From: a virus
Direction: 5' to 3' (one strand)
DNA: 39,493 nt
Virus record (IMG/VR): IMGVR_UViG_3300049847_000387
Location: 1 to 39,493 of that record
Shown in pieces: positions 6,312 through 39,493 of the stretch; positions within the stretch are counted from its first letter, which is position 1; every line of letters starts with the position of its first letter. Under the pieces are notes generated by a model. That model ran no database searches. It worked only from the letters and a program-made list of their open reading frames with translations, and was not told the DNA's origin. Position numbers and translations under genes: made by a program.

Positions 6312-7265
6312 ATGTATGGTGTATATCCCTATTCAGACGCACCTTACGCTGATATACCCAATACAGGTGGTGGTAGCGGTAATATAACCACTATAGGTAT
6401 AAGCACAACACTTACTATTGGGAATGCTACACTTGTTGCAGGACCAGTCAACATAAGTGTTACTGGCATAGGAACAACGGCATCCATTGGCTCGCCAACT
6501 GTTGTAAATTCAGGTGGTAGCACACAAGATATACCTGCTACCGCTATCGTATCAACTGCTTCACTCGGCGCACCTTCATTAACAGCTGGCGCAGTAAATA
6601 TAACTGCTACAGGAATAAATTCAACTGCAACTATTGGAAGCGCCACTATTACCGCTGGTGCTGTCAATATAAGCACGACTGGCATTAGTTCAACTGCAAC
6701 TTTGGGCGCACCAACACTTATAGCAGGTGCCGTAAATATTTCAGCAACAGGCATAGCGTCAACTGCCGCGCTTGGCTCGCCAACGGTTTCTGTATCAGGT
6801 GGCGGCACACAAAATATAACTGCTACGGGTATAAGTTCAGGTGCAACAATCGGTGCACCGTCTGCCGATAGCCTTTATACAATATCTGCAACTGGTATTA
6901 GTTCGACCGCTTCGCTCGGCTCAATAACAACTACAGTCGGTCCTGTCAGCATTACGCCTTCGGGTATTGCATCGGGTGCTGCACTTGGCGCAAGCAGCTT
7001 AGTAGCAGGCGACGTAAATATATCGCCATCTGGCATAGCGTCAACCGCTACACTCGGCGCACCAAGTCAATCATCAGTAGCAAACATTAGTCCAACTGGT
7101 GTTGGGAGCACCATTACTATTGGCTCAGCTGTTGTCGGACTCGGCAGCCAGATTATCGCGCCAAGCAGTATTGGCGGTGTTGTTGGACATGATTATTACA
7201 TAGATAGTTCAGGAAATGTTTATTGGGTTATAGATAAAACTATAGGGCTTGTTGAAAAAGTATAA
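6312..7265 (+). CDS. Repeat-rich fibre-like virion protein
   Basis: 317 aa. After a Tyr/Pro-rich N-terminus (residues 1-24) the protein consists of about 11 tandem repeats of mostly 23 residues with the pattern I-[ST]-x-T-G-I-x-S-T-A-x-[IL]-G-[AS]-P, usually ending GAVN. It ends in a non-repetitive tail of about 38 residues (DYYIDSSGNVYWVIDK), resembling a small terminal domain. Repeats like this in phages usually form an extended beta-structured shaft. The ribosome binding site TTAGGAGTAAGCC lies 10 bases after the previous stop. It probably works with the preceding fibre-like protein. Confidence 0.65.
   Translation: MYGVYPYSDAPYADIPNTGGGSGNITTIGISTTLTIGNATLVAGPVNISVTGIGTTASIGSPTVVNSGGSTQDIPATAIVSTASLGAPSLTAGAVNITATGINSTATIGSATITAGAVNISTTGISSTATLGAPTLIAGAVNISATGIASTAALGSPTVSVSGGGTQNITATGISSGATIGAPSADSLYTISATGISSTASLGSITTTVGPVSITPSGIASGAALGASSLVAGDVNISPSGIASTATLGAPSQSSVANISPTGVGSTITIGSAVVGLGSQIIAPSSIGGVVGHDYYIDSSGNVYWVIDKTIGLVEKV
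6384..7145 (+). repeat. Tandem 69-bp coding repeats
   Basis: Repeats within the fibre-like gene, with a modal period of 69 bases (23 codons) and two longer units of 26 codons. Copies are degenerate at synonymous and some non-synonymous positions, so the array is old or diversifying rather than freshly duplicated. Such arrays can change copy number by recombination and so vary fibre length. Confidence 0.8.
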
Positions 7266-7273
7266 AAAAGTCC

Positions 7274-7301
7274 TTGACATACCGAACAAGAAGCGTATAA
7301 T
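7274..7301 (+). promoter_or_regulatory. Housekeeping-type promoter of the 7.3-7.9 kb cassette, with operator-like motif
   Basis: TTGACA at 7274-7279, a 16-bp spacer and TATAAT at 7296-7301, a near-perfect sigma-70 promoter. The 13-bp motif CGAACAAGAAGCG fills 7283-7295, ending directly against the -10. The same motif occurs at four other promoter regions of this phage. Inside the spacer it would be in a position to repress. Confidence 0.8.
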
Positions 7302-7883: not shown

Positions 7884-7921
7884 TAATAACATTGTTAAAT
7901 ATTCCATACAATTAGAGTAGA
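7884..7921 (+). promoter_or_regulatory. Putative phage late promoter, copy 2 (before protease-scaffold and capsid)
   Basis: TAATAA at 7884-7889, a 17-bp spacer, then TACAATTAGAGTAGA at 7907-7921. It lies just after a terminator, so a new promoter is needed here, which supports the call. The start codon at 7924 is only about 5 bases past the expected transcription start, so the message may be almost leaderless. Confidence 0.65.
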
Positions 7922-12164: not shown

Positions 12165-12580
12165 TGGCACATTATTATACAGATATAAAAGCTGGCATTG
12201 TAACTTTGCTGGCTAATTCAACAAAAGCAAAAGTAGTTTATAACTATGAGGAAGTAAAGCCTGCTGGCTATCCTGCCATTACTGTTACACCAATAGACGG
12301 CGAAGCAGAGTTTTTGGACAATACCAGAGTGCGACGCGATTTTCAGTTTAGCGTCAAGCTATATCAAGAACGTATTGAGGCTGGTCCACAAGCAGCAGAA
12401 CGCATTATGACATCACTTGTTGATGAAGTATTAGCATTGTTTGATGACAAGAACAACACAACGCTTAGCAACACCGTTATATTCATGAAGCCTGTCAAAG
12501 TAAAGTGGGGCTATCTTGCAGTGCCAGATGCAGATGTGCGTTCGTGCGAAATTCTATTAATTGGCGAAGTTGCTCAGTAA
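12164..12580 (+). CDS. Tail terminator / tail completion protein, putative
   Basis: 138 aa. The helix-strand arrangement (YTDIKAGIVTLLAN, then YPAITVTPIDGEAEFLDN and FQFSVKLYQER) and its place between the gp10-like and major tail protein genes match tail terminators, which cap the tail tube. Its stop codon is part of the -35-like TAATGA of late promoter copy 3. No other identity is suggested by sequence. Confidence 0.65.
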   Translation: MAHYYTDIKAGIVTLLANSTKAKVVYNYEEVKPAGYPAITVTPIDGEAEFLDNTRVRRDFQFSVKLYQERIEAGPQAAERIMTSLVDEVLALFDDKNNTTLSNTVIFMKPVKVKWGYLAVPDADVRSCEILLIGEVAQ

Positions 12581-12615
12581 TGAAAATTAATAATTACATC
12601 TACAATTAAAGTAGA
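12578..12615 (+). promoter_or_regulatory. Putative phage late promoter, copy 3 (before major tail protein)
   Basis: TAATGA at 12578-12583, a 17-bp spacer, then TACAATTAAAGTAGA at 12601-12615. The ribosome binding site (GAAAGGAATAAG) and the ATG at 12634 follow. The -35-like element is identical to that of copy 1 and at the same spacing. The major tail protein is needed in many copies, so a private promoter is sensible. Confidence 0.65.
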
Positions 12616-17962: not shown

Positions 17963-18376
17963 ATGGGCGCAATATATAATCTTCTAGAAAGTCAATTTGA
18001 AATCGTAAGATCAGGAAATTTTCCATTAATATATACTGTTAGTGAGTCGGTTGGTGTTAGCGGCACCGCACAACTAGATTTAACAGCATTAAATTTAAAT
18101 ATATTTACATTTCCATTTCATACATTTTTATATAAAACTGCACTCGGTGGTGGTGGAACATCGGCTATTTGGACACCAGCACCATTTACTACTTATAGAA
18201 CAGACGGCACAATAAGCAGTTCAGTAACATATACATTTAACATTGGTGTTGCCAAAACTGGAGTTTTTGCATCAATGAACGTCACTGCATACGACAGAAA
18301 TGCTTCACTTACCGATACCATACAATTGGTATATTTAATGTCTAATGTTCCTATACCAAACTTATACTTTGGGTAA
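17963..18376 (+). CDS. Hypothetical tail-region protein
   Basis: 137 aa, beta-rich with many Thr/Ser, lacking recognisable motifs. The ribosome binding site TAAGGAATAAC precedes ATG at 17963, 8 bases after the tail-tip gene ends. The composition resembles small fibre or decoration proteins. Its stop codon contributes to the -35-like element of late promoter copy 4, so transcription is boosted right after it. Confidence 0.6.
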   Translation: MGAIYNLLESQFEIVRSGNFPLIYTVSESVGVSGTAQLDLTALNLNIFTFPFHTFLYKTALGGGGTSAIWTPAPFTTYRTDGTISSSVTYTFNIGVAKTGVFASMNVTAYDRNASLTDTIQLVYLMSNVPIPNLYFG

Positions 18377-18411
18377 TCACATTTTGTTATAAAAGTTACT
18401 ATTAAAGAGAG
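18374..18411 (+). promoter_or_regulatory. Putative phage late promoter, copy 4 (before fibre and lysis genes)
   Basis: TAATCA at 18374-18379, a 17-bp spacer, then TACTATTAAAGAGAG at 18397-18411. The ribosome binding site AGAGAGGATAAC leads to the ATG at 18418. Spacing and core match the other copies. It would drive the lysis block at 19.4-20.8 kb. Confidence 0.62.
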
Positions 18412-20827: not shown

Positions 20828-21379
20828 TTACCACCATCTGTGTTGAAGCCAGAAGATATAGCTGCCTTGCCAACAATTATCGCCAGTTCCTAGATAACAG
20901 TATTTTTTTGCATAATTACTAAACCAAGCATTTTGACAAGCATAATCATAACCACAAGGATTTAATACCTTACTGGCTGGACATGCTTGCCCGATGCCGT
21001 CACAGCCTTCAGAATTTGGATTTCGCGTTCTACAGCCACTTTCATGCATGTAAATGTAGTTGGCGTATGAATTATCGCCACAGCCAGCCACAACGTCACT
21101 GAGGGGCGCTGCGTGCGCCACAGGGCGTTGCACAGACGCTAACACAGCCTGCTGTGCTTTTCTGGTTTGCAGTTGTATTTGCAGATCGTCTATTTTCTGC
21201 TTTTGTTCTTGCGTCTGTTTTTCGAGGTCCTGAAGTCTCTGTGCCGCATCTTTATTCTGCTGCAATCGTTGATCTTCAAGTTGTTTTGTTATTCGTTGTA
21301 TATTGTGCTGGTATCTGGTTAGTAGATTGTGGGAAAATGCCAGAAACCCTAGAGTTGAAATAGCTGTGACAATCAACAC
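20828..21379 (-). CDS. Membrane-anchored lysozyme-like protein with Cys-rich catalytic domain
   Basis: 183 aa from the GTG at 21379. A hydrophobic segment (VTAISTLGFLAFS) is followed by a coiled coil (about 25-70) and a C-terminal Cys-rich domain: YANYIYMHESGC (Glu a candidate catalytic acid), EGCDGIGQACPAS, CGYDYACQNAWF and a final WLQHRWW. The layout is of lytic-transglycosylase or lysozyme type; the Cys-rich version is one I associate with Saccharibacteria. The frame remains open upstream: an ATA at 21400, with AAGGAG 7 bases before it, would add a basic IKRFYIA signal-anchor start. The protein is probably exported. It may act in entry, exclusion or lysis. It lies behind a late-type promoter. 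Confidence 0.72.
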   Translation of the reverse strand: MLIVTAISTLGFLAFSHNLLTRYQHNIQRITKQLEDQRLQQNKDAAQRLQDLEKQTQEQKQKIDDLQIQLQTRKAQQAVLASVQRPVAHAAPLSDVVAGCGDNSYANYIYMHESGCRTRNPNSEGCDGIGQACPASKVLNPCGYDYACQNAWFSNYAKKYCYLGTGDNCWQGSYIFWLQHRWW

Positions 21380-21424: not shown

Positions 21425-21462
21425 TATACTTTAATTTTATATAAAAATGTCGGTTGCGATTA
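21425..21462 (-). promoter_or_regulatory. Putative phage late promoter, copy 5 (minus, before lysozyme-like gene)
   Basis: On the minus strand, TAATCG (21462-21457), a 17-bp spacer, then TAAAATTAAAGTATA from 21439 to 21425. The TAA is the stop codon of the upstream small membrane gene. Geometry and core agree with the plus-strand copies, so the lysozyme-like gene belongs to the same expression class as the capsid and tail. Confidence 0.6.
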
Positions 21463-21879: not shown

Positions 21880-21908
21880 ATTTTAGCACGTTTATTATTA
21901 TTTGTCAA
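21880..21908 (-). promoter_or_regulatory. Housekeeping-type promoter (minus) of candidate small RNA 1
   Basis: On the minus strand, TTGACA (21908-21903), a 17-bp spacer and TAAAAT (21885-21880). No gene with a ribosome binding site lies between it and the terminator at 21780-21750, which is why I propose an RNA product. The CGAACA motif is absent here. Confidence 0.65.
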
Positions 21909-22680: not shown

Positions 22681-22718
22681 TCTACTTTAATCGTAGCTTT
22701 AATCACAATTAAAAATTA
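22681..22718 (-). promoter_or_regulatory. Putative phage late promoter, copy 6 (minus)
   Basis: On the minus strand, TAATTT (22718-22713), a 17-bp spacer, then TACGATTAAAGTAGA (22695-22681), with the start codon 23 bases on. A second near copy, TGTGATTAAAGC, sits just upstream in tandem, giving two overlapping -10-like cores. Confidence 0.55.
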
Positions 22719-24156: not shown

Positions 24157-24191
24157 ACTTTAATCGTATACGAAAAAAGCCACCTGCATTG
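24156..24191 (-). promoter_or_regulatory. Putative phage late promoter, copy 7 (minus, weakest match)
   Basis: On the minus strand, CAATGC (24191-24186), a 17-bp spacer, then TACGATTAAAGTA (24168-24156). The -35-like part lacks the TAAT of other copies, but the -10 and downstream core match well. It overlaps the hairpin of the terminator at 24205-24173. The expected start of transcription is at or next to the ATG. Confidence 0.45.
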
Positions 24192-24337: not shown

Positions 24338-24366
24338 TTGACATGCTAAAATGAATGGCGTATAAT
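24338..24366 (+). promoter_or_regulatory. Housekeeping-type promoter of the early/recombination operon, with abutting 13-bp motif
   Basis: TTGACA (24338-24343), a 17-bp spacer and TATAAT (24361-24366). The motif CGAACAAAAACCG at 24325-24337 touches the -35. The leader, with AGGTATCATTAAG and AAGGAGCACGCAAG before ATG 24401, closely parallels the minus-strand unit at 21728-21660, so the two are probably co-regulated. Confidence 0.85.
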
Positions 24367-27748: not shown

Positions 27749-27844
27749 ATGATAACAGCAGAAAACATCTTGAATAACGCACTTGCTATTCCGCAGATGC
27801 AATTTGAATTAACGAAAGGAAAAACTAATGCGCCGAAGTCGTGA
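27749..27844 (+). CDS. Small ORF, 31 aa, leaderless leader peptide candidate
   Basis: ATG at 27749 lies exactly where transcription from TATAAT (27737-27742) should begin, 6 bases on, and no ribosome binding site is possible. The frame runs 31 codons (MITAENILNNALAIPQMQF onwards) and overlaps the HTH gene start by 17 bases. If translated, it may couple to, or compete with, HTH gene translation. Confidence 0.4.
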   Translation: MITAENILNNALAIPQMQFELTKGKTNAPKS

Positions 27845-28100
27845 CGAACTAGCCAAAGACATAGACAAGATGATTGTCTTGCGTAATCAGAATAAGACAT
27901 ACCGACAGATCGCCACATTAATGGGCTATCGGTCAGCTGGCACAATATCAGATCTATTGCGTAGTCGCGGACACTTTAGCATGGTGCTTAACCAGCTAGA
28001 GATTAATTGGCTATTGCAAATGTTAAAAACATTGCCTGCCTCAAAAACTAAGGCAGACATTACGCGAAAATTAAAAAATATAAGGAGTAACGAAAAATGA
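27828..28100 (+). CDS. Small helix-turn-helix protein, putative regulator
   Basis: 90 aa with an HTH at about residues 23-48: NKTYRQIATLMGYRSAGTIS then DLLRSRG, with flanking basic helices. It lies behind its own promoter, which carries one copy of the 13-bp motif found at four other promoter regions, so it is the best candidate for the protein that reads that motif. The ribosome binding site GAAAGGAAAAACTA is good. The size is typical of phage Cro-like or response proteins, although the family could not be named. Confidence 0.7.
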   Translation: MRRSRDELAKDIDKMIVLRNQNKTYRQIATLMGYRSAGTISDLLRSRGHFSMVLNQLEINWLLQMLKTLPASKTKADITRKLKNIRSNEK

Positions 28101-28775: not shown

Positions 28776-29036
28776 ATGTCAGAATTCAGCATCGTAGCAA
28801 AAAACGACTATATCATTGCAGAAACATTACTTGAAGGTAGCGACAAGCCATTTGAAACAGTAGATAATAGCCAAAAAAACCAATACCTACAAGTTGTTGG
28901 TGTCGGCAAAGCAGTTGACTCATGCAAAGTCGGCGACAAAATATTGCCATACGGTCAAGAGTTCCAAGCTTTTGCATTCAAAGGCAAGCAATACATCGTT
29001 CTTACATCATCACAGGTCATAGGAGTGTTTAAATAA
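28776..29036 (+). CDS. groES: GroES-like co-chaperonin
   Basis: 86 aa. The C-terminal half matches Cpn10 (CKVGDKILPYGQEFQAFAFK, then GKQYIVLTSSQVIGVF, as in GroES VGDIVIF..YLIMSESDILAIV). The N-terminal part retains FSIVAKNDYIIAETL; the mobile-loop region (KPFETVDNSQKNQ) is shorter than usual. It starts after a strong ribosome binding site (TTTTTAGGAGCAGAC) and overlaps groEL by one base (TAATG). GroES caps the GroEL ring. Phage groES genes are rare but known, for example T4 gp31 and RB49 CocO. Confidence 0.85.
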   Translation: MSEFSIVAKNDYIIAETLLEGSDKPFETVDNSQKNQYLQVVGVGKAVDSCKVGDKILPYGQEFQAFAFKGKQYIVLTSSQVIGVFK

Positions 29037-30622
29037 TGCCACGAGCTATCAAACAAAGCGACGATGCACGCCAAGCCACAAAACGTGGTATTGACCGCGC
29101 AGCAGACATTGTGAAAGCTACGCTCGGCGTAAATGGGCGCAATGTCATTCTTGACACTAATCCTTACACACAGCCAACAAACACAAACGATGGTGTTACT
29201 ATTTTGCGCGAGCTAGAATTTGAAGACCCATTTGAAAATGTTGGTTTGAAAGCTATTAAAGAAGCTGCTGCACGCACAAACGATGTAGCAGGCGACGGAA
29301 CTACTACAGCCAGCGTATTGATGCAGGCTATCGTTAATGAGGGACACAAAGCAATTATTGCTGGCGCAGACCCTATAGCTATCCGTCGTGGCATTGAACG
29401 AGGCGCAAAAGACATCGTTAATTTAATCAAAGAAAACGTAACCAAAGCCAAAGATCTGCAAAGCCTTATATCAACCGCAATCATTTCATGTGGTGGCGAT
29501 ACCGAAATAGGTAAAATGGTTGCTGAGATTATATTTGAATCTGGTGTTGAGGGTGTTGTAACACTTGAAGACAGTCCTGAAGTCGAAACAACGACTGAAC
29601 AAATTGCAGGATTAAAACTTCGAGGGTCATTTAATATACCTAATTACATCAATGTGCCAGAGTTACAGCAATCAGTTTTAACCGATACACCAGTATTTGT
29701 TACTAATGCTAGTGTTGTTTCTGGTCCCGAAATGGCAAAAATCATGGAAGTGGCGTTTTCAACAGGCAAAAAGCAGGTTGTCATTATAGCCAATTCTATT
29801 GAGGGCGACGCACTGATGACTAGTTTGAAGAACTGGGTAAATAAGAAGTTCTTCGCACTACCTATTCGTGTGCTTGCATACGGCGATATGGGCGAGGGTA
29901 TGCTTCGTGACGTTGCAGCTATCACTGGCGCTAAGTTTTATGACAGCATGACAACAGATAATATTAATGATTTACTACCTGAACATCTTGGCACTATCCA
30001 AAAGATTGTTGCAGAAAAGCACGAAACTACTATTATTGCTAATGATAACGCTAAAAAAGAAGCACGCATTAAAGAACTACAGGCACAAGTAAAAGCAACC
30101 AATCGACAATTTGAACAAGAATCGCTAAAAGAGCGCATTGCTAAGCTTAACAACGCACTCTTCACTATCAAGGTTGGTGGTCAGACCGACACAGAGCGCC
30201 AAGAACGCAAACTTCGTATAGAAGATGCTATCAATGCTACAAAAGCCGCTTTAATCGACGGTGTAGTATCTGGCGGCGGTTCTACGCTATATCGTAGCTC
30301 GGTAAAGATAACAACCGATTTAACTGGCGACGAATTGATTGGCTTCAAAGCAGTATTAAAAGCTTGCCAAGAACCTATCGAGCAAATGGCACGCAACGGC
30401 TCAATTCGTTTGGACCGTAGCGACCTAAAGGCTATTGAGAAGAACAATATGGCAATTGACTTTCGCACTGGCGAAGTCGTCAAAGCATTTGAATATGGAA
30501 TTATCGACCCTGTAAAAGTAGTAATAAGTGGACTTGAAAATGCAGCCAGTGGCGCTGCACTGTTCTTAACAACCGAAGCTGTTGTTGTGCGCCAAGAAGC
30601 ACCGAAAGAAGAACAGGTTTGA
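29036..30622 (+). CDS. groEL: GroEL-like chaperonin
   Basis: 528 aa, near full length. Asp52 (TNDGVTIL) and Asp87 (AGDGTTTASV) sit at the same positions as in E. coli GroEL, and the third ATP-site residue is in RKLRIEDAINAT. VSGGGSTL and AYGDMGEG mark intermediate and apical domains. The C-terminal GGM repeats are replaced by a short charged tail (APKEEQV). It folds proteins in a GroES-capped cavity, presumably phage capsid or tail proteins or enzymes of the island downstream. It is coupled to groES. Confidence 0.96.
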   Translation: MPRAIKQSDDARQATKRGIDRAADIVKATLGVNGRNVILDTNPYTQPTNTNDGVTILRELEFEDPFENVGLKAIKEAAARTNDVAGDGTTTASVLMQAIVNEGHKAIIAGADPIAIRRGIERGAKDIVNLIKENVTKAKDLQSLISTAIISCGGDTEIGKMVAEIIFESGVEGVVTLEDSPEVETTTEQIAGLKLRGSFNIPNYINVPELQQSVLTDTPVFVTNASVVSGPEMAKIMEVAFSTGKKQVVIIANSIEGDALMTSLKNWVNKKFFALPIRVLAYGDMGEGMLRDVAAITGAKFYDSMTTDNINDLLPEHLGTIQKIVAEKHETTIIANDNAKKEARIKELQAQVKATNRQFEQESLKERIAKLNNALFTIKVGGQTDTERQERKLRIEDAINATKAALIDGVVSGGGSTLYRSSVKITTDLTGDELIGFKAVLKACQEPIEQMARNGSIRLDRSDLKAIEKNNMAIDFRTGEVVKAFEYGIIDPVKVVISGLENAASGAALFLTTEAVVVRQEAPKEEQV

Positions 30623-30623
30623 C

Positions 30624-31517
30624 ATGAAATTGTCTCTTGTCATCCCATTTATAGACAACGTAGACATCACAAAGCACTGTATTGAAACAGCAGTAAAAAA
30701 CGTCAAACTTGGCTCAACATTTTGTGACTTTGAGCTAGTATTACTCGATAACGGTTCTGACAAGGCGAATAGTAAAATTATCAAAAAGTATGCCGATGCT
30801 ATGGCTGCCGATGGTTTATTCATTCGTAACGAAGAAAACGTCGGCGTGTTGCCTAGTTTTAAGCAAGCATTTCAGGAAACAGATAGTGACATCATTTGTT
30901 TCATACACAATGACGTATTAATACACCAAGAAGATTGGGTTAATATGGTTGTGCACGCATTTACAACAGTTCCTAATCTCGGACTGGCAGGTATTTTTGG
31001 CGCGGTTGGTGTCGGCGAAAATGGTGGGCGTATTCGTTCACAAAGCCAAATGCTTGGACTAGAATGGGGCGCATGTCAATGTCACAGTGTCGCATGGCAA
31101 CATCACTCAGAGTTTATGGATGGCATTTCGCCAGCTGCAATACTCGATGGTGTCGGCATGTTCTTCAGCCGTCAAGCTGCTAACAATCTTATGGAAACAG
31201 ACATGTTTGATAGCTGGCGTGCGCCACACCATTTTTATGACCGCATTATCCCATTAAAGCTAATCGACAAAGGGTTTAAAATTGCTACTATCGGACTTGG
31301 CTTTGACCATTGGTCGGGTGCTACAGCTAACAGTTCTGGCAAATATATAACCACAGGGCTTAATTGGCTAAAAGAAAACAATAAGTATGTTGAGGGCGAG
31401 GCAGTTGATAGCCAGATTTATAACATAGCTGAGCAACAGTTCTTTGGCGAATTTGGCAAGCGCATACCCTGCTACGTTCACTCTGATTGGAACTACGAAT
31501 GGCGAGGGTTAGCATAA
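30624..31517 (+). CDS. Family 2 glycosyltransferase
   Basis: 297 aa from ATG 30624, directly after groEL (an earlier in-frame start lies in groEL and is unlikely). GT-A fold: MKLSLVIPFIDNVDITK, LVLLDNGSDKANSK (nucleotide-sugar binding), SDIICFIHNDVLIHQEDW (the HND in the D-x-D position) and ILDGVGMFFSRQA. It transfers a sugar from a nucleotide donor. It belongs to a six-gene sugar-modification island ending at 36445. Confidence 0.82.
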   Translation: MKLSLVIPFIDNVDITKHCIETAVKNVKLGSTFCDFELVLLDNGSDKANSKIIKKYADAMAADGLFIRNEENVGVLPSFKQAFQETDSDIICFIHNDVLIHQEDWVNMVVHAFTTVPNLGLAGIFGAVGVGENGGRIRSQSQMLGLEWGACQCHSVAWQHHSEFMDGISPAAILDGVGMFFSRQAANNLMETDMFDSWRAPHHFYDRIIPLKLIDKGFKIATIGLGFDHWSGATANSSGKYITTGLNWLKENNKYVEGEAVDSQIYNIAEQQFFGEFGKRIPCYVHSDWNYEWRGLA

Positions 31518-32206
31518 TGCGTGAAGATGGACAAATTCAACCAGCCAAAGTAACCCATTTTACACAGCAAGGTTTTACGCTCACAGGTATTATCCATGCT
31601 GGAATGAATGATGGCGAAGAAGTATATAGCTACAAAGATCTTGGTATTAAAAATATAATTGGCTTCGAGCCACTACCGTTTGCCGCACAAAAAGCTCGCG
31701 ACGAACATGGCGTATATGTATCTGAGTTAGCACTATCTGATAAAACAGGCGTTACTGAATTAATCGTCACTAAGGGCGACGGTAAGGGTAGTTCAATATT
31801 TGAGCCTATACTTGAAAGTGAAGAAGTTAAGAAAAACTGGGTCGATAACGGTATCATCGTTGACCACATAAAAATTCAAACTACGCGTTTTGACGAATGG
31901 GTTGAGCATCAGCCAAAAGACAAATTTGACATAGCTAATTTTAATTGTCTTGTGCTCGACACACAGGGTAACGAATGGGAAGTTCTTCACGGCTGTGGTA
32001 AATATCTGCAAGAATTCAGTTTCTTATCTATAGAGCTAAGCAGCACGCCAGTATATGAAGGCGAGCATTCAGCGCAAGAAGTATGTGACTGGTTAGCAGA
32101 ACAAGGCTTTACACAAGACTCTGAAATCCAATCTCACAATGACGTATTCTTTATTAAGTCATCTATAAAACCAACAAGCGATAGGATATATTATGGACTT
32201 GCCTAA
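31517..32206 (+). CDS. FkbM-family methyltransferase
   Basis: 229 aa from ATG 31517 (TAATG overlap). GIIHAGMNDGEEVYSYKDLG (SAM loop), IIGFEPLPFAAQKARD, CLVLDTQGNEWEVLHGC and LSIELSS form the FkbM signature of O-methyltransferases, which methylate sugar hydroxyls. The adjacent glycosyltransferases suggest methylation of a transferred glycan. The overlap with the next gene is 14 bases. Confidence 0.85.
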   Translation: MREDGQIQPAKVTHFTQQGFTLTGIIHAGMNDGEEVYSYKDLGIKNIIGFEPLPFAAQKARDEHGVYVSELALSDKTGVTELIVTKGDGKGSSIFEPILESEEVKKNWVDNGIIVDHIKIQTTRFDEWVEHQPKDKFDIANFNCLVLDTQGNEWEVLHGCGKYLQEFSFLSIELSSTPVYEGEHSAQEVCDWLAEQGFTQDSEIQSHNDVFFIKSSIKPTSDRIYYGLA

Positions 32207-32750
32207 GCAACTTGATTTAGGTTCTGGCGGCACACCACGCACACGCGAAGGTTATGACGGTTGGGGCGTTGATGTTTATGAAACAGGCAATAAACAGGTA
32301 AGGATTTGTGACCTTGTGCTAGATCAACTGCCATTTGAAGATAACACCTTTGATTTAGTAACGGCTTATGATGTGCTCGAACATATAACACCAATCGTAT
32401 ATATACCAGTATTTGATGACTATGGTCATTATATGGGTATGCAACGCCGCAGCTGCATGATTGAGCTGTTCAATGAGATATACCGCGTGCTCAAGCCAAA
32501 TGGCGAGTTCTACCACCAAACTCCTGCGTATCATCCAAACGAGAATAGCCAAGCTGTATGGCAAGACCCTACGCATGTATATGTGTGGACGCCTGTCACA
32601 TCAAATTACTTCTCTGGCGATTACTTTGGGCATCATGACAGCTATGGGCATACTTCTGACTTTACTTTAGTCAACAAAGATTGGTCAAATGGTCATTTTT
32701 GCGAAACTTATCGGGCTACAAAGCCTATGCGTGAGGTGTTTACATTATGA
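32193..32750 (+). CDS. Class I SAM-dependent methyltransferase
   Basis: 185 aa. Motif I is QLDLGSGGTPRTREG; the next elements are LPFEDNTFDLVTAYDVLEHI and EIYRVLKPNGEFYHQTPAY, typical of Methyltransf_11-like enzymes. The substrate is not evident; with FkbM and GT neighbours, a sugar is likely, though modified nucleobases are also possible. It overlaps its neighbours on both sides (14 and 4 bases). Confidence 0.82.
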   Translation: MDLPKQLDLGSGGTPRTREGYDGWGVDVYETGNKQVRICDLVLDQLPFEDNTFDLVTAYDVLEHITPIVYIPVFDDYGHYMGMQRRSCMIELFNEIYRVLKPNGEFYHQTPAYHPNENSQAVWQDPTHVYVWTPVTSNYFSGDYFGHHDSYGHTSDFTLVNKDWSNGHFCETYRATKPMREVFTL

Positions 32751-33475
32751 AAACAATTGGAATAGTCGTGCCAGTGCTTAATTATTTCAAAGGCTTTACA
32801 GACCTAGCACTAAGCATTAAGACAAAACACAACTATAAAATATACGTTCAGCCACAATATCGCGCACAGGTGCCACTAAGTGCTGCATGGAATAAGGGTT
32901 CACTACAGGCATTTGCTGAAGGGTGTGACTATGCACTGGTATGCAACGACGACATTATGTTTGCACCAGAATGCATTGACGGTATGGTTGAACAATACGA
33001 ACTTCTAAAAAAGCAAGGTATTATCATGGTCACACCAAATAATATTCTTGGCGAGATTGGCGATGCATTTAACATCTTGAATTATAAATTGCCAGAAGGA
33101 CAAGAACCATCATTTAGCGATCATCCAAACTTTAGCTGTTTTCTAATAGCACCTGAATATTTTGAGAAGGTAGGCATGTTTGACGAAAACTTCGCACCTG
33201 CATGGTATGAAGATAACGATAGCCACCGACGCGCTACACTTGCAGGGCTTCGGGAAATATGCACCACAGCAGCGCCTATGGTTCATATCGGCGGCGTGAC
33301 GACACACATGATGGAAAACAATGTCGGTTCTGGCGGTTCACAAGCATATTACATAGAAAAATGGGGGGGCATACCTGAATCACATCCGCTTCAGGCACAA
33401 AAAGAACATTACTTAACACCGTATAATGACCCTAATTTAACAATTAAAGATTGGCGAGGAAACCAATATGTCTAA
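32747..33475 (+). CDS. Family 2-like glycosyltransferase
   Basis: 242 aa. MKTIGIVVPVLNYFKGF, CDYALVCNDDIMFAP (the NDD donor-metal motif) and KVGMFDENFAPAWYEDNDSH (acceptor and Asp base region) identify a GT-A enzyme of the GT2 type. It overlaps the methyltransferase by 4 bases and the dehydratase by 8, so it is expressed in the same run. Confidence 0.8.
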   Translation: MKTIGIVVPVLNYFKGFTDLALSIKTKHNYKIYVQPQYRAQVPLSAAWNKGSLQAFAEGCDYALVCNDDIMFAPECIDGMVEQYELLKKQGIIMVTPNNILGEIGDAFNILNYKLPEGQEPSFSDHPNFSCFLIAPEYFEKVGMFDENFAPAWYEDNDSHRRATLAGLREICTTAAPMVHIGGVTTHMMENNVGSGGSQAYYIEKWGGIPESHPLQAQKEHYLTPYNDPNLTIKDWRGNQYV

Positions 33476-34484
33476 AAAAGCACTATTAACAGGGGCAGGT
33501 GGTTTCATCGGCTGCCATACACTAGCACACGTTATGCATAATACTGATTGGAATGTTGTATGTCTCGATAGTTTCAGGCACAAAGGCAAGACAGACCGCA
33601 TTACTGAGATGCTTGAATCACATCCTGATTGGAGCGACCGTATTGAAGTTGTCACACACGACCTTATTGCACCACTTAGCGACCAGCTTATTAACCGTAT
33701 TGGCGACGTAAACTATATATTAAATATTGCATCTGAAAGCCATGTCGATCGTTCAATAGAAGACCCTGTTTCATTTGTAAAAAACAATGTTGACCTAGTA
33801 TTGAATATGCTCGAATATGCTCGCAAAGTAAAGCCAGAAGTATTTATGCAGATTTCAACCGACGAAGTATACGGTGCTGCACCTATAGGCATTAATCACA
33901 AAGAATGGTCGCCAATCTTACCAAGTAACCCATATTCAGGCAGTAAGGCTGCACAAGAAGCAATCGCCATTAGTTATTGGCGCACATACGGCGTTCCAGT
34001 CGTTATTACTAACACTATGAATAACTTTGGCGAAATGCAAGACCCTGAAAAGTTTGTGCCGATGGTCATACAGAAAATTAACAAAGGCGAGACAGTTACA
34101 ATTCATGGTAACGAAGATTACATCGGTTCACGCTTTTATCTGCACGCTCGTAACCACGCGGACGCACTCTTGTATATTATTAACAATCTGCCACCTGCTG
34201 TATACGAAGATAATAACTTGATAGTTATGCCATCACGCTATAATGTCGTCGGCAATATCGAAATGAACAATCTTGAAATGGCACAACTTATAGCAAAATT
34301 GATGGGCAAGGAACTTAATTACGAGCTTGTTGACTTTCATCATACACGAGCAGGACATGACCGACGATACGCATTAGATGGTTCAAAGCTTATTGGCTTA
34401 GGCTGGCAAATGCCAGTGCCGTTTGAAGATAGCTTAAAAAATACAATTGAATGGACGCTTGAGCGACCAGAATGGTTAATATAA
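33468..34484 (+). CDS. NAD-dependent epimerase/dehydratase (dTDP-glucose 4,6-dehydratase-like)
   Basis: 338 aa, extended SDR. TGAGGFIGCH at 8-17 binds NAD; ASESHVDRSIEDP, ISTDEVYG with Thr131-Asp132-Glu133, and YSGSKAAQE with Tyr156 and Lys160 form the active site of the RmlB type, which makes 4-keto-6-deoxy sugar nucleotides. That supplies a modified donor for the glycosyltransferases here. The C-terminal part retains the substrate-binding ARNHADAL segment. Confidence 0.88.
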   Translation: MSKKALLTGAGGFIGCHTLAHVMHNTDWNVVCLDSFRHKGKTDRITEMLESHPDWSDRIEVVTHDLIAPLSDQLINRIGDVNYILNIASESHVDRSIEDPVSFVKNNVDLVLNMLEYARKVKPEVFMQISTDEVYGAAPIGINHKEWSPILPSNPYSGSKAAQEAIAISYWRTYGVPVVITNTMNNFGEMQDPEKFVPMVIQKINKGETVTIHGNEDYIGSRFYLHARNHADALLYIINNLPPAVYEDNNLIVMPSRYNVVGNIEMNNLEMAQLIAKLMGKELNYELVDFHHTRAGHDRRYALDGSKLIGLGWQMPVPFEDSLKNTIEWTLERPEWLI

Positions 34485-34819
34485 TGGACAAGCCAACCGC
34501 AGCACAGATTATAGCTGACCCACAAGATCTATATATGAACGCGCCAGTTGAATACCCATATGTTGAAAAGATTACACAGCGTGAAGAGTCTCGCTTAAAG
34601 AGTTTTCTAATCAACGTATTTGCACAGGGCGATGATGGCGCTGGCGACGCAATTCGAAATTCGTCACTTGAGGCAGTCGTGCAAACGCTACTTGATAACA
34701 ATTTCACATTTGATACCGAATACTACGGTTATCGACCATTACCAAAAGGCGTTGACGGCAAGCCTATTAGTAAGCTCGATGACCCTGAATATCAACGTAA
34801 AATGGGGTTTAGATCATGA
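34484..34819 (+). CDS. Hypothetical protein in the glycosylation island
   Basis: 111 aa from ATG 34484 (TAATG overlap with the dehydratase). It contains VEKITQREESRLKSFLINVF and DTEYYGYRPLPKGVDG, without a known motif. It is helical then beta, soluble. Coupling to the island suggests a partner or structural role rather than catalysis, but this cannot be proven from sequence. Confidence 0.6.
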   Translation: MDKPTAAQIIADPQDLYMNAPVEYPYVEKITQREESRLKSFLINVFAQGDDGAGDAIRNSSLEAVVQTLLDNNFTFDTEYYGYRPLPKGVDGKPISKLDDPEYQRKMGFRS

Positions 34820-35133
34820 CTATATTTAAATGGTATGACAGATATACACACCGTCGAATGCTAAAAAAGACCGGTGGGCGTGGTAAGTATTCGCACGTTA
34901 ATAGTAAAGGAGTAAGGTATTATTTGAATGTTAAAGAAGTAGTGCTTCGTGGTGATAGGCGACAATCAATATATTATTTTACCAAAGACTTTCATCCTGA
35001 AACCTCTACCGACTGCCCCGGTAACTTTGGGATTCGTGAAAACCCAAGAAATGGATTTTTAACGGTTATAACACCTGCTATGCGTGAATCAGCAAGACGT
35101 GCTGAATCAGAAAGGGTTGTAGAAAATGATTAA
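34816..35133 (+). CDS. Hypothetical basic protein in the glycosylation island
   Basis: 105 aa. The N-terminus is basic with Tyr and Arg (KWYDRYTHRRMLKKTGGRGK) and the middle is beta-rich (SIYYFTKDFHPETSTDCPGN). No family is recognised. It overlaps both neighbours by a few bases. It may bind nucleic acid or a charged glycan. Confidence 0.58.
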   Translation: MTIFKWYDRYTHRRMLKKTGGRGKYSHVNSKGVRYYLNVKEVVLRGDRRQSIYYFTKDFHPETSTDCPGNFGIRENPRNGFLTVITPAMRESARRAESERVVEND

Positions 35134-36445
35134 TGAATCAAAAATTAGAGTGCTTGCATTAGCTGATTATGCTTGCACCACTGGCTTTGCAACGGTATCG
35201 AGCAACATCATGCGCCAGCTTAACAGCACTGGCAAATACGACATTGATGTAGTAGCTATTAACTATACTGGCGACCCTTACGACCACGATTTATTTCCCG
35301 GTCGCGTATACCCTGCACTGAACATTGCTAACATGAATACTGGCGACCCATATGGCCGACAAAAATTCCTCGATATGGCTGGTAATGGTGAATATGATGT
35401 TATATTCATAATCCAAGATACGTTTATAGTTCAGACATTTATTGAAGCACTTGTTGAAACACAAAGCATATTGCCGCACAAATTCAAGATTGTTTATTAC
35501 TTCCCAATAGATGCAACGCCAAAACCTGAGTGGGTTACAAAGTGTGTTTCATTGGTAGATTACCCTGTTGTATATACGGAGTATGGTAAAAAATTAGTAT
35601 TAGACATTGACCCAAGTTTAGAGCATCGCTTAGGGGTTATCTATCATGGCACTAACCTTACTGACTTTAGGTATATAGAAAACCGCGATGAAGTTACCGA
35701 ATTTAGGCACAACTACTTTAGTGGTAAGGCCGATGGTAAATTCTTGATTACTAACGTCAACCGTAATCAAATCCGCAAAGACCCAATGCGTAATTTCATG
35801 ATATTAGATGAACTACGGAAGCGCGGACATAATAACGCCATCCTATACCTACATATGAGCCATGATGACGCAGGCGGTAACTTACTTGTTATGGCAGATC
35901 AATTTGGCTTTAAGTTGCAAGAAGACTTTATATTACCATCGCCAAAGTTCTTTAATGCAAATCAGGGCATACCAGTTGAGTCATTGAATATGATATATAA
36001 CGCATCTGATGCACTCCTAACGCCAACACTCGGCGAAGGTTGGGGGCTTAGTATTACAGAAGCTATGGCAACAAGAGTTCCAATAGTAGCGCCAAACAAT
36101 ACTAGCATCATTGAGATATTAGACAATAATCGTGGATATTTGACAAAAAGCGGCGACAATTCTTCTATGTGGGTAATGCTCGGCGGACAGGACAACGAGC
36201 GTATGCGACCCCTGATGGATGTCGAAGATGCAGCAAGCAATTTAGAGAAAATTATGCGTGGTCAATTACCAGATATTGACAGTGCTTATGAATTCGCGCA
36301 TAAATATAACTGGACAGACATAACTCAACAGTGGGAAACCATTTTTGATAAGGCTGCTTCTGAGGCTAGAATTGCAACAAGGGTCGGTGTTGCACAGCCA
36401 AATCGGGAACAGAGAAGAAAATTAAAAACTAAGGGTCGGAAATAA
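35126..36445 (+). CDS. Family 4 glycosyltransferase
   Basis: 439 aa, GT-B fold. N-terminal acceptor domain: IRVLALADYACTTGFATVS. The C-terminal donor domain has LGVIYHGTNLTDF and the diagnostic EGWGLSITEAMATRVPIVAP followed by NNTSIIE. A basic C-terminus, NREQRRKLKTKGRK, could contact membranes or nucleic acids. It is the last large gene of the island. Confidence 0.88.
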   Translation: MINESKIRVLALADYACTTGFATVSSNIMRQLNSTGKYDIDVVAINYTGDPYDHDLFPGRVYPALNIANMNTGDPYGRQKFLDMAGNGEYDVIFIIQDTFIVQTFIEALVETQSILPHKFKIVYYFPIDATPKPEWVTKCVSLVDYPVVYTEYGKKLVLDIDPSLEHRLGVIYHGTNLTDFRYIENRDEVTEFRHNYFSGKADGKFLITNVNRNQIRKDPMRNFMILDELRKRGHNNAILYLHMSHDDAGGNLLVMADQFGFKLQEDFILPSPKFFNANQGIPVESLNMIYNASDALLTPTLGEGWGLSITEAMATRVPIVAPNNTSIIEILDNNRGYLTKSGDNSSMWVMLGGQDNERMRPLMDVEDAASNLEKIMRGQLPDIDSAYEFAHKYNWTDITQQWETIFDKAASEARIATRVGVAQPNREQRRKLKTKGRK

Positions 36446-36448
36446 CTC

Positions 36449-36655
36449 ATGCCTTTTTATAGATATGAACATGACTGTGGCTACAACCACACGCAATCTT
36501 TATCTACGGACAAAGATAGTGTTGTGCTGAATTGTTTACGCTGTGGTCGTGGGGTATCTGCACGTCAAGTCAGAGACAAGACGATAATGGTAAAAGAGAA
36601 TAACGAGGTAAAGGGGGTTTTTCGACATGACGGTGGTCACAATGCCAATCAATAA
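36449..36655 (+). CDS. Small zinc-ribbon-like protein
   Basis: 68 aa. MPFYRYEHDCGYNHTQSL is reminiscent of FmdB-type regulators, and CLRCG at 29-33 adds a Cys pair; the first side of the ribbon has only one Cys plus His. It overlaps the sigma-like gene by 29 bases, so the two are translated together. A role in transcription together with that protein is possible. Confidence 0.6.
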   Translation: MPFYRYEHDCGYNHTQSLSTDKDSVVLNCLRCGRGVSARQVRDKTIMVKENNEVKGVFRHDGGHNANQ

Positions 36656-36968
36656 CAAACCAGCTAAAAACACGCCATTGCAAAGAGTGCTTGGCTTTGA
36701 AGCAGCTGAAGATACATATGACTTATTAGACTTTAGGGAACAGCTTATCATCGACTTACGAATAGAAGGCTGGTCACAGCATGAAATAGGTGCGGCACTC
36801 GGACTTTCACAAGGATGGGTGTCGATTATTTTTAGGCGCATACGATTTAAGCTTGCTGATAGCAATTTGCGGCGCACACTTGATACGCGGCAATTTTATC
36901 GTGAAACACATTATCAAGTTATGGAACCAAGTTACGAGCAGGACGACGCAAGTATTACAAATTACTAA
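36627..36968 (+). CDS. Sigma-factor region-4-like HTH protein
   Basis: 113 aa. Residues 35-76 read as sigma region 4.2: LDFREQLIIDLRIEGWSQHE, then IGAALGLSQGWVSIIFRRIR and FKL, that is, a helix, a turn and a recognition helix, with the spacing seen in sigma-70 family region 4. Regions 1-3 are missing, so it cannot be a complete sigma factor. Region 4 reads the -35 box. This phage has a promoter class with a changed -35 and a normal -10, so this protein is a candidate specificity switch, acting with host sigma or the polymerase flap. Confidence 0.72.
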   Translation: MTVVTMPINNKPAKNTPLQRVLGFEAAEDTYDLLDFREQLIIDLRIEGWSQHEIGAALGLSQGWVSIIFRRIRFKLADSNLRRTLDTRQFYRETHYQVMEPSYEQDDASITNY

Positions 36969-36977
36969 GGAGCACAT

Positions 36978-37247
36978 ATGCTTTGGATAATATTAATCAT
37001 TGTAGTTATAAACCTAATACTCGGCTTTATCATATTTGAAGCAGTCGTTGATTTAGATGTAAATAGTCATTTGACACGCAATACACATCATTTGCCAATG
37101 CCAAAGTTTGAAATGGCACCAAAGCCTAAAAATGCCATGAGGCAAACTACTACATTACGCAAAAATACAGAGGTCGCACAATCTAATAGTGCTCGTGCTC
37201 GACAAATAAAAGTAACAACAGGAAAAACCAAGAGGGTAATACAGTGA
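36978..37247 (+). CDS. Small membrane-anchored protein
   Basis: 89 aa. An N-terminal hydrophobic helix (MLWIILIIVVINLILGFIIF) is followed by a basic, Thr/Asn/Lys-rich soluble part (NAMRQTTTLRKNTE, then RARQIKVTTGKTKR). The ribosome binding site ACTAAGGAGCACATATG is excellent. The role is unknown; it lies between the sigma-like and phosphoesterase genes and is coupled to the latter through a GTGA overlap. Confidence 0.65.
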   Translation: MLWIILIIVVINLILGFIIFEAVVDLDVNSHLTRNTHHLPMPKFEMAPKPKNAMRQTTTLRKNTEVAQSNSARARQIKVTTGKTKRVIQ

Positions 37248-38596
37248 GTGAAATGTTTTTAGTAACCGCAGCGCAGGCAGAGGCACGACCAAACGAAAAG
37301 TTACTTAGATCAATGGAAACATACATTGCTGAAAATCTTGGTAGTCTTATTGTTTTGCCGATGATAGGCAGAGACGCAAGCGAAGACTGGCAAAGCATGC
37401 ATCCTGATCTAGCAGAATATGACATTGAATATGGCAACAGATCGCTCAATAACCGCATACAGATTGGGCAGTTTCACGTGAAACCACAAGCCATCGACCC
37501 TTTAACTGGCTTACAGCGCTTTGCACAGCGTGAACGAACACAGATTGTCGCATCGCCTAAACAGTTTCAGCGACCTATACCGCACTCAGTTAAAAAGCAT
37601 CCAAAGTTCTTAGTCACAACTGGCGCATTAACAAACCCGAACTATGCAAACGGCGATGATAATTCTGCGGAACGTCGGCGGCTCGGTAGCATCGCACTAA
37701 GAGATCATACATTTGGTGGGCTTGTTGTTGAAGTAAAAGACAGTGACACCTACTACATGAGACACATAACCTCTAATGGAACTGGCAGCTTTATTGATTT
37801 AGGCAAGAAGTATAGTGGTGGCGAGATTACAGAAGCAAAATGCGAAGCTTTAGTATTAGGCGATTACCACTGCGGCAGAACTGACCCCGATGTATTGCAA
37901 GCCACATATCGCATGATTGAAGATATGAAGCCAAAGCGCATCGTGCTGCATGATTACTTTGACGGTCACAGCGTATCACATCACGTTGATAAGGAACTTA
38001 TATCGCAAGGCATATTACAACAGCAAGATTTAGGACATACATCACTCGAAAAAGAACTAAAGCAATGCTACGATGAATTGTTAGTTTTATCAGACATGAC
38101 TGATGAAGTTGTTGTTGTCATGAGCAACCACCATGAGTTTCTCTGGCGCTATCTGAACGAAGGCAGATTTACCAAAGACAAAGAGAATGCACGTTTCGGC
38201 TTTAAGCTTGCATCATTCATGGCAGAAAAAGACCTGAACGACCCTGTTGAACATGGCATTCGCATGATGGGCAAATTGCCACGCAACATACGTTTCTTAA
38301 CAAGAGTAGATGATTACAAAGTGCGAGGCTATCAGCTTGGCGCTCATGGCGACAAAGGTGTTGGCTTTGGTTACGGCTCAATGAAGTCTAAAGAAGAAGA
38401 TTACGGTCAATCAGTCAGCGGTCACGTTCACAAAGCACAATCAATGCGACGCACACATACTGTCGGAACAATGTTACCATTAGACATGTATTACATGCGT
38501 GGCAGTCCATCGGCATGGTCAAATAGTCACTTTGCTATATACGACAACGGCGCAGGTCAACATCTAATGCTAAATAAAGGGGAATACAGGTTATGA
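37244..38596 (+). CDS. Calcineurin-like metallophosphoesterase
   Basis: 450 aa, GTG start at 37244. The metal-binding signature is complete: LVLGDYHCGR (Asp207, His209), VLHDYFDGH (Asp237), VVMSNHHEFL (Asn295, His296, standing in for the usual GNHE), GAHGDKG (His368) and SGHVHKAQS (His394, His396). Residues 1-200 form an extra N-terminal domain. Related phage enzymes, such as T5 A1, take part in host DNA breakdown. Here it precedes the terminase genes, so a role in DNA processing before packaging is also possible. Confidence 0.85.
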   Translation: MSEMFLVTAAQAEARPNEKLLRSMETYIAENLGSLIVLPMIGRDASEDWQSMHPDLAEYDIEYGNRSLNNRIQIGQFHVKPQAIDPLTGLQRFAQRERTQIVASPKQFQRPIPHSVKKHPKFLVTTGALTNPNYANGDDNSAERRRLGSIALRDHTFGGLVVEVKDSDTYYMRHITSNGTGSFIDLGKKYSGGEITEAKCEALVLGDYHCGRTDPDVLQATYRMIEDMKPKRIVLHDYFDGHSVSHHVDKELISQGILQQQDLGHTSLEKELKQCYDELLVLSDMTDEVVVVMSNHHEFLWRYLNEGRFTKDKENARFGFKLASFMAEKDLNDPVEHGIRMMGKLPRNIRFLTRVDDYKVRGYQLGAHGDKGVGFGYGSMKSKEEDYGQSVSGHVHKAQSMRRTHTVGTMLPLDMYYMRGSPSAWSNSHFAIYDNGAGQHLMLNKGEYRL

Positions 38597-38880
38597 CAGG
38601 CTGGGACTCTGAAGGCAACTATCATGATGCCGAATTAAGGCTTGAGCGCATAGCTACGCCTTATGAACGAGCCTTGATAAGACAGGCACAAATCAATGTT
38701 GTTGCTAGTCATTTAATGCAGCAGATTATTGGCGAAAATCCATACCAACCTGATATGGAATGGCAATTGTGGCATCGCGTGCGAGCATTGTATGAAGACC
38801 CAAATGGCAACCAGCTTGCACATGGCGTGACACCAGATGAAGTTATGCAACATTATTACAGGCAATTTGAGGGCGAATAA
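38593..38880 (+). CDS. Hypothetical protein upstream of terminase
   Basis: 95 aa, helical, with YERALIRQAQINVVASHLMQ and WQLWHRVRALYEDPNG. It overlaps the phosphoesterase stop by 4 bases and ends 1 base before the TerS-like gene. No family is recognised. It may be a cofactor of the phosphoesterase or terminase. Confidence 0.65.
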   Translation: MTGWDSEGNYHDAELRLERIATPYERALIRQAQINVVASHLMQQIIGENPYQPDMEWQLWHRVRALYEDPNGNQLAHGVTPDEVMQHYYRQFEGE

Positions 38881-38881
38881 T

Positions 38882-39259
38882 ATGGCAAAATCAACTACAC
38901 AGCAAGTTCCAAACCCCACAGGCAAAGGTGGTTTTGGCGATCATCCAGAAAACAGAAACGCAGGTGGCTGGAAACCTGAATATGTGTTTAGCTATCAGTA
39001 TCGTCGCTTTATGAACATGACAGTTGAAGAGCTAGAAAAGTATGCTGATACACCAGTCAACGAACGAACAGTTGTTGAAGACCTAGCTTATAACCGCGTC
39101 GTTGCTGCAAAGCAAAGTCTGCCAGACGTGAAAGAGATTACCGACAGGACTGAAGGCAAAGCACAGCAATCCATTGACCTCACTTCTGGTGGCGATGCAT
39201 TCGAACCAGTAACAGTGAGAATAATCAATGAGCCGACAAGAGATACTAATACCAAGTGA
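38882..39259 (+). CDS. terS: Terminase small subunit-like protein (DUF5681-type)
   Basis: 125 aa from ATG 38882. KGGFGDHPENRNAGGWKPE is a recurrent N-terminal motif of small proteins that precede terL in many phages. The middle (FMNMTVEELEKYADTP) is helical, and LAYNRVVAAKQSLPDVKEIT recalls oligomerisation helices. TerS recognises the packaging site and recruits TerL. It overlaps terL by 32 bases. Confidence 0.72.
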   Translation: MAKSTTQQVPNPTGKGGFGDHPENRNAGGWKPEYVFSYQYRRFMNMTVEELEKYADTPVNERTVVEDLAYNRVVAAKQSLPDVKEITDRTEGKAQQSIDLTSGGDAFEPVTVRIINEPTRDTNTK

Positions 39260-39493
39260 ATTTGCTCGCCTGCTAGATGATGATTGGCGCGAGGCTGCCG
39301 TATATGGTGGTCGCTATAGCCTCAAGTCACATACCGTTGCAAGGGTGCTTTTAATTAAAGCTATTGAAAAGAAACGACGCTTTGGTTGCTTTCGTGAATT
39401 TCAGAATAGCATCAGCGATAGTTCATACCAACTGCTTGCCGACCTTATCAATCAATATGAACTGAATATGTTTGCCGTCACGAAAGATGGTAT
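39228..39493 (+). CDS. terL: Terminase large subunit, N-terminal part (cut by window end)
   Basis: ATG 39228 lies within the end of the TerS-like gene. The ATPase domain starts YGGRYSLKSHTVARVLL (residues 26-42): a Walker-A-like loop GGRYSLKS, where Leu replaces the second Gly of the usual GSGKS. The frame runs into the 127-bp repeat and continues at base 3 of the window, giving a 429-aa protein. Confidence 0.95.
   Translation, partial: MSRQEILIPSEFARLLDDDWREAAVYGGRYSLKSHTVARVLLIKAIEKKRRFGCFREFQNSISDSSYQLLADLINQYELNMFAVTKDG
39367..39493. repeat. Right copy of 127-bp terminal direct repeat
   Basis: Identical to bases 1-127. The terL reading frame is continuous across the junction when the two copies are merged. 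This supports a complete circular or circularly permuted genome rather than a linear fragment. Confidence 0.95.

Follow-up and report, generated by a model that had tools for sequence, protein, structure and literature searches.

To our knowledge, the main examples of phages that control the host RNA polymerase at the -35 are the AsiA/MotA system and Ltr-type activators, the mechanism of the latter being unclear. AsiA is a phage protein that mimics region 4: it is able to take the place of region 4 on the beta flap, and it also contacts upstream DNA. In the T4 AsiA/MotA system, the phage acts on the -35 end to redirect the host polymerase and leaves a sigma-like -10 in use (PMC6755090). The RinA/ArpU/Ltr proteins are small helix-turn-helix (HTH) proteins encoded just 5' of the terminase genes and have been proposed as late activators (PMC13123087). 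In the case of B. subtilis SigO-RsoA, region 4 resides on a polypeptide apart from region 2, and the two regions are able to work from separate chains (PMC10141391).

The locus described here shares features with each of these systems. SIG4 (positions 36627-36968, forward strand) is a 113-aa stand-alone sigma region-4-like protein encoded in the window, by which we mean the whole stretch of 39,493 nucleotides that was analysed. Based on its ORF, Pfam match, AlphaFold2 (AF2) model, Foldseek comparison and homologues at the locus, it is the proposed reader of the late -35. As in T4, the host polymerase would be redirected at the -35 end and the -10 is sigma-like, and the parallel to AsiA/MotA that was drawn in the initial annotation stands as far as this logic is concerned. 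It does not extend further: here a single protein with a region-4-type HTH would act on late and not on middle genes, and the element lies at the -35 with a sigma-like 17-bp spacing, whereas T4 uses a MotA box near -30. No AsiA/MotA models were among the Pfam matches of the ORFs scanned. By genome position, the nearest functional analogues of SIG4 are the Ltr proteins, being likewise small HTH proteins encoded just 5' of terminase genes. However, SIG4 has no match to the profiles of the RinA/ArpU/Ltr family, and its putative target is a single -35 box present at several promoters on both strands, a non-exhaustive inspection having shown one such box per late promoter. SIG4 shares with SigO-RsoA the separation of region 4 from region 2, but no region-2 partner was found in these phages, and the host sigma presumably supplies region 2. 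The best explanation overall, to which we assign a probability of roughly 0.7 on comparative, sequence-based evidence, is that SIG4 would be a late-promoter specificity factor that reprograms the host RNA polymerase.

The window represents the closed circular genome of an uncultivated phage, with terL divided between both ends. Positions 1-127 and 39367-39493 are identical (127 bp), and because a terminal repeat of the same length is also present in G012, G015 and G026, we attribute it to the k-mer of the assembler rather than to a biological repeat. Relatives were gathered by searches with TerL, SIG4 and capsid alignments, and share with the window the gene order GroEL, glycosyltransferases, zinc ribbon (znrib), SIG4, terminase, portal, and head and tail genes. 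SIG4 was found in 15 contigs besides the window (G001-G004, G007, G009, G011, G012, G014, G015 and G026-G030; G001 and G002 have identical SIG4), and in these 15 further contigs it always adjoins the zinc-ribbon gene ahead of the terminase and portal genes. The phage records searched contained neither a SIG4 relative nor a capsid-protein relative. Scans of genome contigs for a host, using the capsid protein and the lysis-like protein, gave no relative, and an early idea of Saccharibacteria as host, prompted by the style of the lysin, was dropped.

Several further genes of the window were noted. GroES-like and GroEL genes (28776-30622; the GroEL proteins of the relatives are 45-65% identical) are located directly 5' of a conserved cassette (30630-36445) that encodes glycosyltransferases, methyltransferases and a sugar epimerase. 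The last glycosyltransferase of this cassette shares 39.5% identity with a glycosyltransferase encoded at a similar location in Tetrasphaera phage TJE1. TJE1, which carries a glycosyltransferase and a similar cassette beside its terminase, was considered as a model for the locus, but SIG4 and the zinc ribbon are absent there and it therefore does not serve as one. Between SIG4 and terS, the window encodes a protein of the phage T5 A1 kind (DNA transfer/host takeover; 37244-38596) with up to 33% identity to phage records, a gene that was not found in relative G001. The gene for a repetitive protein of the GIxSTATIGxP type (6312-7265) lies between genes for tail-fibre-like and capsid proteins; a perfect promoter of the host type comes after it, at 7274. 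A second small HTH protein of 90 aa is encoded in the early region (27828-28100) and has weak HTH_38/HTH_28 matches; tblastn revealed no copy of it in the relatives.

The SIG4 ORF starts with an ATG at 36627 and ends with a TAA at 36968. Residues 34-76 match the Pfam family Sigma70_r4 (PF04545) with an E-value of 2.9e-7 and a score of 30.4 bits, which exceeds the curated threshold (24.1). The NCBIfam model sigma70-ECF matches with an E-value of 1.2e-7, under that model's cut-off, and generic HTH profiles match more weakly (HTH_23 3e-5, GerE 0.02). SIG4 carries nothing of sigma regions 1-3, so that the initial description of a region-4 HTH without regions 1-3 is borne out. In a search of 12 records with the Sigma70_r4 profile, 10 gave a single match, located at the SIG4 gene; in the genome search the match was above the cut-off also for G001 and G026 and below it for the remaining records. 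Sigma70_r2 was absent from the window and the 12 related records, with control genomes positive in the same profile search, and in this lack of a detectable region 2 for the -10 the system differs from a complete sigma-70 factor. The profile search with PF00940 (phage RNA polymerase) is to be read with the limit that its control genomes gave no match.

An AF2 model of SIG4 was built from ten homologues and has a core pLDDT of >90. Foldseek placed sigma -35-binding domains among the best matches of the model (3vfz, 1ku7, 8jzt and 8x6g); the superposition onto region 4 of SigD (3vfz) yielded an rmsd of 1.1 A over 58 columns and a TM score of 0.84 by target length. The predicted four-helix fold is region-4-like, in agreement with the outcome anticipated for structure prediction in the initial annotation. 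With a second aligner, LuxR-type HTH domains scored about equally well, so the fold alone cannot set SIG4 apart from other tetrahelical HTH proteins. Beyond region 4, SIG4 has a conserved N-terminal stretch (TPLQ..GF..AE.TYD) and a C-terminal helix. The recognition helix comprises residues 61-72 (SQGWVSIIFRRI; 36807-36842, forward strand). In an alignment with WhiG, residues 63-67, which include positions that are specific for the promoter types described below, correspond to the portion of the region-4 recognition helix that reads the -35, this placement making use of the sigma-70 residues that we take to touch the -35. SIG4 accordingly resembles sigma-70 region 4 in its above-cut-off profile match, its predicted fold and the position and spacing of the DNA element, and differs from it in being stand-alone without region 2 or 3 and in its proposed targets, which would be TAAT, CGAY or YTAT and not TTGACA.

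The late promoter of the window reads TAAT-N19-TAYNAT. TAAT is located exactly 23 nt 5' of the -10, and the spacer is 17 bp if the hexamer is read as TAATNN. Promoters of this class stand upstream of portal, protease, tail tube and g22, and of three genes or operons on the reverse strand. On the forward strand, late promoters are found for portal (1124-1152, TAAT-N19-TATGAT, with the -35 within the 3' end of terL), the protease/capsid genes (7884-7912, TAAT-N19-TACAAT), the major tail protein (12578-12606, TAAT-N19-TACAAT) and g22 (18374-18402, TAAT-N19-TACTAT). On the reverse strand, late-type promoters are found for the lysis-like gene at 20828-21379 (21434-21462, TAAT-N19-TAAAAT) and the operon 22657-21924 (22690-22718, TAAT-N19-TACGAT), and a late-type variant for the genes 24156-23553 (24163-24191, CAAT-N19-TACGAT). 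The TAAT motif named in the initial annotation is thereby located at the exact 23-nt distance at six late sites, with only a single -35 box found per late promoter. A clear -35 match is missing before some of the late genes, namely g12 and MCP of the window and the protease gene of G007.

The -10/discriminator pattern TAYNATTARAG occurs 33 times with at most one mismatch compared to 14.5 +/- 3.5 expected (0 of 100 shuffles as high), and seven of its eight exact copies are intergenic compared to 0.5 expected. The relaxed TAAT-N19 pattern reached 7 occurrences in the whole window versus 3.05 expected, with 4 of 100 shuffles as high. Relaxed patterns are not significant genome-wide on their own; the signal emerges when they are taken together with the positions of the late genes and with the relatives. 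The first guess at the motif, a gap of 17 nt after TAAT, occurred at chance level, the correct gap being 19. Strict TAYNATTARAG is not present in G001; we considered this as a refutation and rejected it because the promoters of orthologous genes conserve the -35 and not the discriminator.

Strong host-type promoters are few in the window. Two are perfect (TTGACA, TATAAT), one at 24338-24366 (forward strand, TTGACA-N17-TATAAT) driving a probable early rightward operon and one at 7274-7301 (forward strand, TTGACA-N16-TATAAT) before g8/g9; a further one lies on the reverse strand at 21880-21908 (TTGACA-N17-TAAAAT). Late and host promoters were initially annotated to differ mainly in the -35, which agrees with TAAT at late and TTGACA at probable early promoters and with a sigma-like -10.

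Across the relatives, late promoters comprise three types that have the same 23-nt offset and a different -35, namely TAAT (type A), CGAY (type B) and YTAT (type C). The -10/-35 patterns of our catalogue were picked after inspection; the scans left the -35 free and counted every 4-mer located 14 to 35 nt 5' of a -10-like box, with 200 dinucleotide shuffles as null. In every type, the element at offset 23 ranked first. For type A, TAAT was found 12 times at offset 23 (highest shuffle 7). For type B, CGAC was found 7 times at 23 and the overlapping CCGA 8 times at 24 (highest shuffle 3). For type C, CTAT and TTAT were found 8 and 7 times at 23 and the overlapping TATT 9 times at 22 (highest shuffle 5), many type C sites being orthologous copies. 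In all types, the late sites stand before the same genes (portal, protease, g12, tail tube and g22). One late promoter of G003 begins 3 nt past the SIG4 stop codon.

The -35 type agrees with the recognition helix of SIG4 in 11 of 11 phages in which both are readable, which amount to approximately two or three independent type changes, with kinship partly remaining. The helices are LSQGWVSIIFRRIRFKL in type A, MPRTTVVDTFTRTRYAL or IPRVTCIDIFRRARYFL in type B, which is represented by two contigs only, and the nearly invariant VSQPSISSSVRRLRFKL in type C. Four of the 12 helix positions (63, 64, 67 and 72) separate the types cleanly, compared to three of 66 positions elsewhere in SIG4 (Fisher p 0.009). 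SIG4 is encoded in every contig that covers the locus and has a late -35 of type A, B or C. No relative with a window-type late -35 lacks SIG4 among those found, which is the co-occurrence that the initial annotation had suggested looking for.

Types of late -35 could in principle mirror the hosts instead of SIG4, each host sigma having its own -35 preference and SIG4 being otherwise employed. The GC content of the relatives, which spans 0.38 to 0.57, is in line with such a diversity of hosts. However, both type A and type C genomes retain promoters resembling TTGACA-N16-18-TATAAT in what is probably their control region for early genes, so that the specificity of the host primary sigma appears unchanged, and the helix residues of SIG4 vary jointly with the late box. 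This explanation is largely contradicted already and we regard it as very improbable.

G026 was found by its SIG4, whose helix (LSQGWVSVIIHRVRYKL) is of type A, and TAAT was recorded as the prediction before its promoters were read. In G026, protease, tail tube and g22 are indeed preceded by TAAT at offset 23 and portal by TGAT, although the 4-mer scan of G026 on its own is barely above the null (4 versus a 95% level of 3 and a maximum of 4). Portal, protease and MuF of G026 are just 37-50% like those of the window. A tree of seven structural proteins placed G026 outside A+B with strong support, and a single clade of all A phages was rejected with a p-AU of 9e-8, to be taken with caution as G026 and G007 are long branches. 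Because G026 is of type A although it falls outside A+B, the -35 type is not explained by the closeness of the genes driven. The simplest reading of these sequences is that A+B would descend from a type A ancestor, with a joint change of helix and box on the B branch. With the helix matching the -35 type in all 11 phages and G026 predicted correctly, the initial claim that SIG4 reads the late -35 has gained strong support, and we consider it very probable that SIG4 does so.

The terminase genes provide a second mosaic with the same implication. The terS/terL module of the window (38879-39493 and 1-1151) is 75-76% like that of the type-B phage G003 and 50-60% like those of other A phages, which probably reflects recombination. 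The portal promoter of the window is nonetheless of type A, despite being located inside the 3' end of this G003-like terL. That the helix tracks the -35 type and terL does not (the window terL being nearest to type-B G003) bears on another conceivable role of SIG4, as a packaging accessory with a terS-type HTH whose link to late promoters would be coincidental. SIG4 does adjoin terS/terL, and terminase small subunits often have HTH domains. Nevertheless, a separate terS follows SIG4 in the window, G001 and G003, and znrib and SIG4 persist in G009, G011, G012, G014 and G015, where no match to the window TerL is detectable. We therefore judge a packaging role to be the least probable of the alternatives and very unlikely.

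More serious is the alternative that SIG4 is a class-II activator, of the RinA/ArpU/Ltr kind or LuxR/NarL-like, which overlaps the -35 and recruits the holoenzyme via host region 4 or alpha. Profiles and folds of the GerE/LuxR-type HTH are nearly as good for SIG4, Ltr proteins are similarly small and likewise encoded directly upstream of terminase genes (PMC13123087), and the co-segregation of helix and box would fit equally well. The element, however, is one unrepeated box of 4-5 bp at a fixed offset with a 17-bp spacer geometry like that of sigma region 4, whereas the Ltr of Phi13 requires repeats upstream of its promoter (PMC13123087). In addition, SIG4 matches no Ltr, RinA or ArpU model up to an E-value of 1, and the PHROG late-activator match has an E-value of 0.24. 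We consider a class-II activator unlikely, yet clearly more plausible than the other alternatives. The combination of a fixed single -35 box, a sigma-type -10 and no detected region 2 would fit best with SIG4 reading the -35 in trans to the host sigma.

Directly 5' of SIG4, every SIG4 contig encodes znrib, in the window a 68-aa zinc-ribbon protein (36449-36655, forward strand) whose gene overlaps SIG4 by 29 bp. Its conserved residues are C10 and C29xxC32, it has a weak match to Zn_ribbon_8, and no solved structure matched. A relationship to RbpA was considered and rejected, as mycobacterial RbpA chains were present in the Foldseek list only at E-values of 1.7-2.8 and no sequence match was found. 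As a possible partner of SIG4 that binds RNA polymerase, znrib is a lead. The constancy of this neighbour, together with the SigO-RsoA precedent for regions 2 and 4 on separate polypeptides (PMC10141391), could also indicate that SIG4 is one half of a two-part phage sigma, with a phage partner, perhaps znrib, bringing region 2. This is doubtful in the extreme, since Sigma70_r2 is unmatched in 13 genomes and contigs with a working control, and znrib is small, zinc-ribbon-like and without any sigma similarity found. Moreover, the HTH ORF at the corresponding locus of G016 has no zinc-ribbon gene between it and GT3.

As a specificity factor, SIG4 would act as follows. It would probably be produced at the end of an early/middle operon, and its recognition helix would read the 4-bp element, TAAT in the window, at the place where host region 4 reads TTGACA. 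Since these phages yielded no region 2 of their own, the -10 box (TAYNAT, sigma-like and at the same spacing) would presumably still be recognized by the region 2 that the host sigma carries. SIG4 would then turn on the promoters of portal, protease/capsid, tail and the lysis side, with early promoters keeping TTGACA. Four parts of this scheme are inferred from sequence: that SIG4 physically binds the -35, that it depends on the host sigma, when it is expressed, and that it docks on the polymerase where host region 4 would sit and not next to it. Whether SIG4 displaces region 4 of the host sigma from the beta flap, resulting in a mixed holoenzyme in which phage region 4 joins the host core and sigma regions 1-3, we put at close to even odds. 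Phages might swap the -35 that they use through a few residue changes in the SIG4 plug-in module, made along with changes of the late promoters.

Further variants are present at the margins of the group. G028-G030 (L065, L066, L067; clade E) encode SIG4 with a fourth recognition helix, ISPKEVSLIVHSIRVKL, and in these short contigs no late -35 element was resolved; the G027 contig stops short of the late promoters. G016 (L028), an outlying relative, has a divergent 113-aa HTH ORF at the SIG4 locus, between GT3 and portal. GCAA is located at offset 23 before four late genes of G016, and its count does not exceed the null; the HTH ORF and GCAA as a fourth helix/-35 pair are suggestive and not significant.

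Taken together, about twenty related contigs combine a minimal protein of the region-4 kind with a promoter class that can be read clearly, and nature provides at least three matched helix/-35 pairs. These natural pairs make it directly testable whether region 4 can act in trans to the host sigma, and likewise the recognition code of the region-4 helix. For this uncultivated phage lineage, they yield a sequence rule for late promoters that has already predicted one new genome correctly. If SIG4 truly replaces host region 4, these phages would offer a series, formed in nature, in which each -35 box has its own matching reader.
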